The notes under the pieces were generated by a model that was not told the origin of the DNA, searched no databases, and worked only from the letters and a program-made list of their open reading frames with translations. Position numbers and translations under genes: made by a program. From the NCBI GenBank assembly GCA_019638775.1, contig JAHBTD010000001.1, positions 868,001 through 932,000 of the forward strand: a stretch of 64,000 nucleotides of DNA, written 5' to 3'. The stretch is from Fimbriimonadaceae bacterium. GTDB lineage: Bacteria > Armatimonadota > Fimbriimonadia > Fimbriimonadales > Fimbriimonadaceae. Shown here one piece after another: positions 5,986 through 47,132 of the stretch (its first letter is position 1; each line of letters starts with the position of its first letter).

Positions 5986-6080
5986 GGGAGCGAATGGGTG
6001 CTGGTGTGCCCCGCGGTCTTCAAAACCGTTTGTGGCGTCTTTGGGCGCCGGGTGAGTTCGATTCTTACACGCTCCCGCCA
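5986..6080 (+). tRNA. selC: tRNA-Sec (anticodon TCA), selenocysteine
   Basis: The 95-nt gene, including an encoded CCA end, folds as a bacterial selenocysteine tRNA. The acceptor is GGGAGCG (5986-5992) with CGCTCCC (6070-6076), then discriminator G and CCA. The D arm is an extended 6-bp stem with a 4-nt loop. The anticodon arm is GCGGT, loop CTTCAAA (anticodon TCA) and ACCGT. A long variable arm, GGCGTC TTTG GGCGCC, is followed by a T arm with loop TTCGATT. The length equals that of the E. coli tRNA, and the CTTCAAA loop is identical. The eighth acceptor position is an A/A mismatch, a small departure from the usual 8-bp acceptor. selA, selB and selD are not in this window. Confidence 0.93.
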
Positions 6081-15321: not shown

Positions 15322-15507
15322 TGGTCACCTCTCCAATTTGTCGGTCGGTGAGAAAGCCTCAAGCGACTGTGCTTCGAGCCTATCTCTTTCGATGTGTCTG
15401 CGAGGTTAGCTGGCGGATTAGAGCCGAAAGTACTCTTCCGATTAGATCGGATTCACCCCTATTGAGTGGGTCCCCCGCTCCGACGTGCGTCGGATTTGAC
15501 TAATTCA
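15322..15507 (-). promoter_or_regulatory. long structured 5' leader of the Acb2-like mini-operon
   Basis: Transcription from the TATAAT at 15513-15508 would give a leader of about 185 nt. It contains a perfect hairpin CCGACG-CA-CGTCGG (15493-15480) and a second stem CCGAT-CTA-ATCGG (about 15450-15438), followed by further paired-looking segments. No ORF of useful size is present. It does not match a riboswitch class I can recall. It may control the three small genes. Confidence 0.4.
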
Positions 15508-15513
15508 ATTATA
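15508..15513 (-). promoter_or_regulatory. -10 box TATAAT of the mini-operon
   Basis: Perfect TATAAT on the minus strand, about 185 nt before the first gene. No clear TTGACA is seen at the usual distance. Confidence 0.5.
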
Positions 15514-45481: not shown

Positions 45482-46387
45482 TTGATTCTCGTTTACGGAA
45501 CGATATGTATCGACCAAATGCGCACGATTAAACAACTCCCACCGAGCGGGGGCTACGTGGAGATTCTTGAGGAGCGCATTTTACTTGGCGGCGAAGCCGC
45601 GAACACCGCGTATGCGCTGATGCAGTGGGACGCGGACATGCGTCTTGCCGGAAATCCCCTCGGGCTTGACGCGGATGGAAGACAACTTGCCGATCTTGTC
45701 CGGAAGAGCGGCCTGCCGATGCAGGACTTGCAAGAACGTGATGCGACCACGCCTGTTTGCGACATCTACGTGACGCCCAACGGCGAGCGGACAATGTTCG
45801 GGAAGGGCTTTGCCACGATCACCGACTCGCTTGATCCCCCCTCCGCGCCTTTCGCAGCGGAAGGCTGGTTCACACTTGACTCCAACTTGCGTGAATCGGG
45901 CGACGATGCCCTGCGGCTTGCAAAAGGGGCGGGGATGCACCTCTATGTGATGGACATTCTAGACCCCTCCATCGAATTTGCTGCGACCGATGTTTGGCAG
46001 TGCAGTACCGATTGGGCGGGAGTTCGGGGCGATGTCGCTGGAAACTTGGAGTGGGTTCGGAGGTGGGGGGATCGGCACGGATGTGCGGCGATTCTCACCG
46101 ATGGTTCCAACGGCTTTGTCGCTGGTGGCCCCGGACAGGCTCCCAAGCACTTTTTCCCATATCCATGTCCAAAAGTCGTGGACTCCACCGGTGCGGGCGA
46201 TATGTTTAGAGCGGGGATGCTGTTTGGGCTGGACCAAGGCTGGCCCTTCTCTCAGTGCTTGAGCTTTGCTGCGGCGGCGGGGAGTTTAAAGTGTCAGGCG
46301 TTGGGGGCGATGACCTACGTGCCAACTTTGGATGAAGTGCAAGCCCACATCTCAGCGCATCCTGATGTCGCTGAGCAATACATCTGA
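45482..46387 (+). CDS. PfkB-family carbohydrate kinase
   Basis: TTG at 45482 is preferred because it gives the normal family N-terminus (ILVYGTICIDQM); TAGATT lies 7 nt before it, again leaderless-like. The 301-residue product has the substrate loop GGEAANTAYALMQWD, NGERTMFGKG, and the anion hole/catalytic base motif DSTGAGDMFRAGMLFGL with Asp at the GAGD. PfkB kinases phosphorylate sugars or nucleosides with ATP. The sugar cannot be told. It ends 2 bp from the candidate selenoprotein gene on the other strand. Confidence 0.9.
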   Translation: MILVYGTICIDQMRTIKQLPPSGGYVEILEERILLGGEAANTAYALMQWDADMRLAGNPLGLDADGRQLADLVRKSGLPMQDLQERDATTPVCDIYVTPNGERTMFGKGFATITDSLDPPSAPFAAEGWFTLDSNLRESGDDALRLAKGAGMHLYVMDILDPSIEFAATDVWQCSTDWAGVRGDVAGNLEWVRRWGDRHGCAAILTDGSNGFVAGGPGQAPKHFFPYPCPKVVDSTGAGDMFRAGMLFGLDQGWPFSQCLSFAAAAGSLKCQALGAMTYVPTLDEVQAHISAHPDVAEQYI

Positions 46388-46389
46388 CA

Positions 46390-46524
46390 TCAGTCTCTAT
46401 CTTTGTGCTTCGGATCCACCGAGCAAGAGCCTGTCCATCACGTAGGAACGCCGAGCTTGGGGCCAAGCCAAAGCTGCCAGATGACGTAGAGAGCGAAAAA
46501 GCCTCCGACAATCCAGGGGTTCAT
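46390..46524 (-). CDS. candidate small membrane selenoprotein (in-frame UGA = Sec29)
   Basis: Read with UGA at 46440-46438 as selenocysteine, the frame gives 44 residues. A single hydrophobic segment comes first (NPWIVGGFFALYVIWQLWLG), then a short linker PKLGVPT, then U-WTGSC with Cys34 five positions on, and a polar charged tail. Just after the UGA, a hairpin TGC-TCGG-TGGAT-CCGA-A-GCA has its apical loop about 19 nt downstream and a G in the first two loop bases, matching the usual bacterial SECIS rules. tRNA-Sec lies in the same window. Codons before the UGA look coding. No Shine-Dalgarno is present. Without recoding the ORF would be only 28 codons. Confidence 0.55.
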
Positions 46525-46616: not shown

Positions 46617-47132
46617 TTAGTCTGCTCGACGCATCCAAACTTCGATATCGCCTTCGCGAACAGCTCCTTCGAAGTGATACGTTACGTCAGACTCATTCGC
46701 GCGAAAACTCACGCTGATTTTGTCGCGTCGGTCGGAATTCGGGCGAGAGTTCTTCGCCTTAAAATCTCCAACCCGAACTACAAGCGGTCCGTGGAACCGA
46801 TGTCGCTCGTTGTTTCGCATAACCACCATGACAGCAGGACCGCCAAACGCGGCTGTGTCTCCGTCCTTGGCAAATTCACGGCACTCCGGCATTTCGATGC
46901 GAACAGCTGTGTTATTGCTCGGGATCCGGGCCTCCCACACAAACTTTCCATCGACAACCGGCTCCCCATTACGCCGCATAGCTTTACGGACCTCGAAGTT
47001 GAACGATCCGTGGAGTTGATCGTTGTTCACGGCAACTCCTCTTCCTTTCGCGCCGGCAACTCCCGCGTGCTGCGCTAAGGCGAGCGATGCGAGCACAACC
47101 GACAAAACAATCATTAGCTTCTTTGCTAACAT
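46617..47132 (-). CDS. secreted beta-rich protein of unknown function
   Basis: ATG at 47132 follows GGAGGT at good spacing and opens a signal peptide (LAKKLMIVLSVVLASLALAQ). The 171-residue product is beta-strand rich and basic (HGSFNFEVRKAMRRNGEP, VMVVMRNNERHRFHG, ISVSFRANESDVTYHFEG), perhaps a small jelly-roll. It has no cysteines that would form a domain signature. I do not recognise it. A CCCACTGG/CCAGTGGG hairpin (about 46573-46596) lies past its 3' end and may be its terminator. Confidence 0.7.
   Translation of the reverse strand: MLAKKLMIVLSVVLASLALAQHAGVAGAKGRGVAVNNDQLHGSFNFEVRKAMRRNGEPVVDGKFVWEARIPSNNTAVRIEMPECREFAKDGDTAAFGGPAVMVVMRNNERHRFHGPLVVRVGDFKAKNSRPNSDRRDKISVSFRANESDVTYHFEGAVREGDIEVWMRRAD

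Follow-up and report, generated by a model that had tools for sequence, protein, structure and literature searches.

A predicted family of small single-pass membrane selenoproteins from Fimbriimonadaceae and many other bacteria, matching no library searched

In eukaryotes, SELENOK and SELENOS are small single-pass membrane proteins with selenocysteine (Sec) near the C-terminus. The protein described here, encoded in a Fimbriimonadaceae genome on a stretch of 64,000 nucleotides (hereafter the window, i.e., the whole stretch of DNA analyzed), shares with them the layout alone: its Sec stands right past the helix in an LPxxGVPTU motif, and its SECIS element is of the bacterial, in-frame type. The original prediction claimed no closer likeness, and indeed the members scanned gave no significant Pfam match of the SELENOK/SELENOS kind. 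Thioredoxin-fold selenoproteins are recognized by a thioredoxin-like fold with UxxC or CxxU; here, a single helix with a low-confidence tail and a U-x4-C spacing are found instead. The UGSC-containing selenoprotein (NF041046) also combines Sec with a nearby G-S-C, but its UGSC is contiguous, whereas the Cys of our protein follows five residues past Sec (U-W-T-G-S-C), and the NF041046 model does not match the family. DUF6132 (PF19628), a small membrane protein with Cys-x-S-G-x-Cys that adjoins some family members, has no corresponding Sec position, and its Pfam model does not match the family either. The Tso selenoproteins TsoA, TsoB, TsoC, TsoX and TsoY (Haft and Tolstoy 2025, as listed in PMC13188914) are likewise bacterial and of unknown function, and a TsoR-like ArsR-type regulator adjoins some members of the family studied here. 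However, the Tso motifs given in that listing (LULAxC, GxxU, UxxC and others) differ from the family motif, and the NCBIfam models for TsoA, TsoB, TsoC, TsoX and TsoY found no match in 57 member scans. The same 2026 catalogue of 119 prokaryotic selenoprotein families (PMC13188914) describes the Sec insertion machinery and bSECIS model that apply here as well, and none of its listed Sec motifs fits LPxxGVPTUxSxxC.

Searches of general libraries gave a similar picture. Member scans against Pfam returned nothing significant (the best value, E 0.001, was for a membrane protein of mycobacterial arabinan synthesis; it comes nowhere near any cut-off and is due to the hydrophobic helix), and neither did the 57 member scans against NCBIfam release 20 (June 2026) or the search of the PDB with the family; Rfam holds no family for the element following the UGA. 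In the literature searched, GVPTU was not found paired with a selenoprotein, although an earlier mention is possible. The original prediction knew of no bacterial family of this kind, and none emerged from Pfam, NCBIfam, Rfam, the PDB or the catalogue. The machinery for Sec insertion is the usual one; what none of the libraries searched contains is the protein family.

The gene (46390..46524, minus strand) starts with ATG at 46524, passes an in-frame TGA at 46440-46438 and terminates with TGA at 46392-46390, as read from the window and in agreement to the base with the frame originally proposed. It translates as MNPWIVGGFFALYVIWQLWLGPKLGVPT-U-WTGSCSVDPKHKDRD, that is, 44 residues with Sec at residue 29. 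The frame had been said to fit the gap next to the stop of a PfkB-family gene; this convergent gene stops at 46387, 2 bases from the end of the selenoprotein frame. A scan for promoters and terminators around the selenoprotein gene found none. The upstream gene (46617-47129, minus strand) encodes a protein of 170 residues whose N-terminus resembles a signal peptide and which belongs to no clear family.

The genome possesses what Sec insertion requires. The tRNA-Sec gene (selC) predicted for the same window lies at 5986..6080 on the plus strand and was detected by both ARAGORN and Rfam (RF01852, 70.8 bits), and selA, selB and selD, on which the original prediction depended, are all present above curated cut-offs. 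Furthermore, selD (L186, G000:C3:202514-203419, minus strand) contains an in-frame UGA of its own (NCAG-U-ASKLGP) followed by a hairpin of -9.1 kcal/mol. SelD is thus itself a predicted selenoprotein in this genome, which argues that the genome uses Sec. Taken as a whole, the locus very likely encodes a 44-residue single-pass membrane selenoprotein of an uncatalogued family, with Sec inserted at residue 29 through SelB, tRNA-Sec and the hairpin.

A first search of 61 relatives gave two clear homologues that have TGA at the corresponding codon. Among its weak matches (L004-L030, E 0.007-1), none of those inspected (L004, L005, L012, L016 and L021) was homologous, and the others were left out; L034 and L035 were also discarded as members. 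The profile was extended stepwise from the first homologues and then run on 291 Armatimonadota genomes, which yielded 30 members; of these, 28 have TGA at exactly this codon and two a Cys codon. Homologues conserved beyond the UGA thus exist, as do the Cys forms looked for at position 29 (L036, L055 and others), and P22, G25, T28 and U/C29 are invariant in the 30-member alignment. Note that one member (L039, G012:C3) has a second UGA six residues past Sec, inside the hairpin loop; its protein would end in MSSAPT without the second Cys, and a variant, a further recoding or an assembly error are all possible.

The family extends far beyond this phylum. Loci with the conserved recoded stop codon can be found in well over 150 bacterial genomes of many phyla, and a search of plasmids with the family gave no match. 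A degenerate codon pattern, run over 84,980 genomes, detected at least 117 loci, all but one (L180) reading as true members; the taxa among the matches listed include Acidobacteria, Geobacter, other Deltaproteobacteria, Thermodesulfobacteria, Planctomycetes, KSB1, Spirochaetes, Gemmatimonadetes, Zixibacteria, Krumholzibacteria, Myxococcota, Akkermansiaceae, Anaerolineae and Solincola, among others. Accordingly, what had been described as a lone candidate stands as a predicted selenoprotein but not as a lone one. In the non-redundant set of 141 members (among the matches listed), the codon corresponding to 46438..46440 (minus strand) is TGA in 130 and TGC or TGT in 11. As the pattern demands TGA, TGC or TGT at the Sec place and Cys at +5, its counts are biased at +5 and blind to Trp, and profile searches were therefore used for these questions. 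Automatic reading was possible for 48 of the unbiased profile matches; the Sec place holds TGA in 45 of them and Cys in three, and Cys stands at +5 in 45; neither Trp nor any other sense codon was seen at the Sec place in the profile matches inspected. In a sample of Geobacter's phylum, 122 of 297 genomes (~40%) match the profile at E 0.001 or better, and in all 30 top matches inspected the UGA occupies the same position between conserved flanks. The phylum of a Planctomycetales genome gave 19 matching genomes of 199 at E 1e-5 or better. One Planctomycetales genome (G292) carries both a Cys and a Sec copy (L217, L236), a natural Sec/Cys comparison. The family is Sec-dominant, and it is either ancient or widely transferred.

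The members share a simple architecture: a few residues that are mostly acidic or neutral, a single membrane helix, the Sec motif and a charged low-complexity tail, with a total length of 44-73 residues in the Armatimonadota set. The single helix predicted before the UGA appears in the AlphaFold2 model at residues 3-23 (46456..46518, minus strand) and is hydrophobic in all homologues; pLDDT is 93 and 86 in the first two ten-residue blocks, and confidence is low beyond the helix. The mean net charge is -0.6 before the helix and +0.9 after it (higher after the helix in 75% of members), and this difference weakly favours an N-out/C-in orientation with Sec on the cytoplasmic face. The helix is followed by the family motif [ILV]LP[KR]xG[VI][PS]T-U-M-S-x-[SA]-C, relaxed across phyla to LP[KR]xG[VI][PS]T-U-xSxxC and represented in the window's protein by LGPKLGVPT-U-WTGSC (residues 20-34; 46423..46467, minus strand). 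Past the UGA, Ser at +2 and Cys at +5 are conserved.

These features suggest how the protein might work. SelB, tRNA-Sec and the hairpin following the UGA would insert Sec at residue 29, directly past the membrane helix, and the conserved LPxxGVPT turn would hold it at the membrane surface. Sec could then pair with the Cys at +5 (U-x4-C) in a selenenylsulfide, and electrons or sulfane sulfur could be exchanged with a thiol partner that is either soluble or in the membrane. The second Cys is absent in a few members (L039, L057, L064, L065), so such a selenenylsulfide cannot be universal. We tentatively infer a membrane-tethered selenol/thiol redox carrier as the most economical reading.

The genomic neighbourhoods are consistent with this reading. 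The commonest co-directional Pfam neighbours are ArsR-family regulators (7), DUF302 (5), rhodanese, OsmC and DUF6132 (4 each) and thioredoxin (3), and the sulfur/thiol-redox types also include CcdA/DsbD; the neighbouring regulators resemble BigR, TsoR and CmtR. Of 39 cases of thiol/sulfur-type clusters, 31 are close to the gene, as compared with 43% of all neighbouring frames (binomial p = 3e-6), a modest excess, since other recurring clusters are also found near the gene (60 of 110). In Geobacter-type genomes, the gene often faces a convergent operon for a CcdA-like membrane protein and a TlpA-like thioredoxin (loci facing such an operon are L237, L239, L245, L254, L068, L073 and L175). At L249, L251 and L267, in three genomes, a sigma-factor-like gene starts almost immediately past the selenoprotein gene. 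Throughout Geobacter's phylum, contexts vary and the gene stands mostly alone with no constant partner; because of this, and because neighbourhoods differ between phyla, they point to a function weakly.

Two other roles for a selenoprotein of this kind have to be considered. It could serve a larger membrane complex, either as a small accessory subunit or as an assembly factor, with a Sec that is structural or needed for maturation. The small size, single helix, invariant P-x-x-G turn and low-confidence tail are typical of small subunits, but no genes for such a complex were found to be constant neighbours, and we regard this role as unlikely. Alternatively, the Sec-Cys pair may bind a soft metal or metalloid (As, Hg, Cu or Se species) and serve in resistance or trafficking rather than as a redox carrier. 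ArsR/SmtB-type regulators, including TsoR-, BigR- and CmtR-like ones, are located near several loci, and RND efflux genes at some. However, most members lack such a neighbour, many ArsR proteins respond to redox or sulfur signals, and the association of RND transporters with the family is not significant (p = 0.2); metal binding therefore appears improbable, and the redox carrier remains the reading that we tentatively prefer.

Whatever its role, the presence of Sec in the protein depends on how the UGA is decoded. Right after this codon lies a hairpin (46406..46425, minus strand) pairing as TGC-TCGG-[TGGAT]-CCGA-(A)-GCA, just as originally drawn, with the loop TGGAT starting after 19 nt from the UGA and a folding energy of -8.0 kcal/mol under the published bSECIS constraints, which it fits (G within the first two loop bases; 16-37 nt from the UGA). 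Taken alone, it does not differ significantly from shuffles (z -0.73). The significance comes from the family, i.e., from the conserved UGA, the protein conservation on both sides of it and covariation, rather than from a single hairpin. Of the UGA members, 90% have a hairpin that meets the bSECIS rules with -7.5 kcal/mol or better, compared with 33% of dinucleotide shuffles and 33% of shuffles among synonymous codons, which leave the protein unchanged. The corresponding values for the Cys members (55% vs 47% and 40%) show no clear excess in only 11 sequences. In the part of the alignment that follows the UGA, which is free of gaps, the pairs with the highest APC-corrected mutual information fall mostly on the anti-diagonals i+j = 50 and 44. 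These correspond to two registers of a single hairpin; in the Cys members, several of the i+j = 44 pairs close to the loop are missing. Among the UGA members, the SECIS hairpin thus occurs in two registers within one homologous family. Substitutions after the UGA, counted in close member pairs, are far from random (54, 46 and 118 at codon positions 1, 2 and 3), and this third-position bias argues that the downstream part evolves as coding sequence.

UGA forms of the gene also track the Sec machinery. SelB above its curated cut-off was detected in all 23 genomes with UGA members in the cross-phylum comparison, but in only three of nine with Cys members (Fisher p = 9e-5), and one of these three also has a Sec copy. 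Within Armatimonadota, SelB is present in 24 of 28 genomes with UGA members as compared with 117 of 261 genomes in which the family is absent (p = 3e-5); it is missing from both genomes with Cys members. In four UGA-carrying Armatimonadota genomes, SelB was not found above the cut-off; three of them are 72-88% complete, and G172, the remaining one, has 92% completeness and 7% contamination.

These data bear on whether the UGA could simply be a true stop. The product would then be a 28-residue membrane peptide, and the conservation downstream would reflect an RNA element or chance. Such a single-helix peptide could exist, and the hairpin of the window is not significant by itself. Nevertheless, the Cys-form genes read through at the same codon, Ser and Cys are conserved beyond it, downstream substitutions are biased towards third positions and the UGA forms follow SelB, so that this explanation is strongly disfavoured and very improbable. 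Decoding of the UGA as another amino acid such as Trp, by a code change or leaky readthrough, is hardly credible: the frame is also open under a UGA=Trp code, but the alternative residue of the homologues is Cys, with no Trp or other sense codon among the profile matches inspected, and SECIS hairpins follow the UGA with no clear excess after Cys codons, while SelB co-occurs with the UGA forms. On these computational grounds, the family is almost certainly a selenoprotein family.

Very probably, the databases have missed it because a genuine gene of this type resembles a useless fragment ending at a stop. The likely causes are that the frame before the UGA has only ~30 codons, which gene callers skip, and that Cys homologues are rare. 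According to its authors, deep-Sep may miss selenoproteins without Cys homologues, and a read-through method reportedly lost a Geobacter selenoprotein with Sec near the C-terminus; methods based on Cys homologues or on read-through similarity thus struggle, by their papers' own account, with the tiny Sec-dominant type. It is quite possible that an overlooked membrane selenol relay of less than 8 kDa is among the commonest selenoproteins of Geobacter's phylum and occurs in Acidobacteriota, Armatimonadota and others as well, and that Sec-dominant genes with short frames before the UGA form a systematic blind spot of selenoprotein discovery. The family would add a large group of tiny, single-pass, Sec-dominant proteins to the bacterial selenoproteome, and many genomes, including those of cultured Geobacter relatives, would gain a directly testable selenoprotein. 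Since the family so strongly prefers Sec to Cys, one may ask which chemistry at the membrane surface needs selenium.

Elsewhere in the window, a c-di-AMP riboswitch (ydaO/yuaA, RF00379, 82 bits) is located at 15381-15511 on the minus strand.
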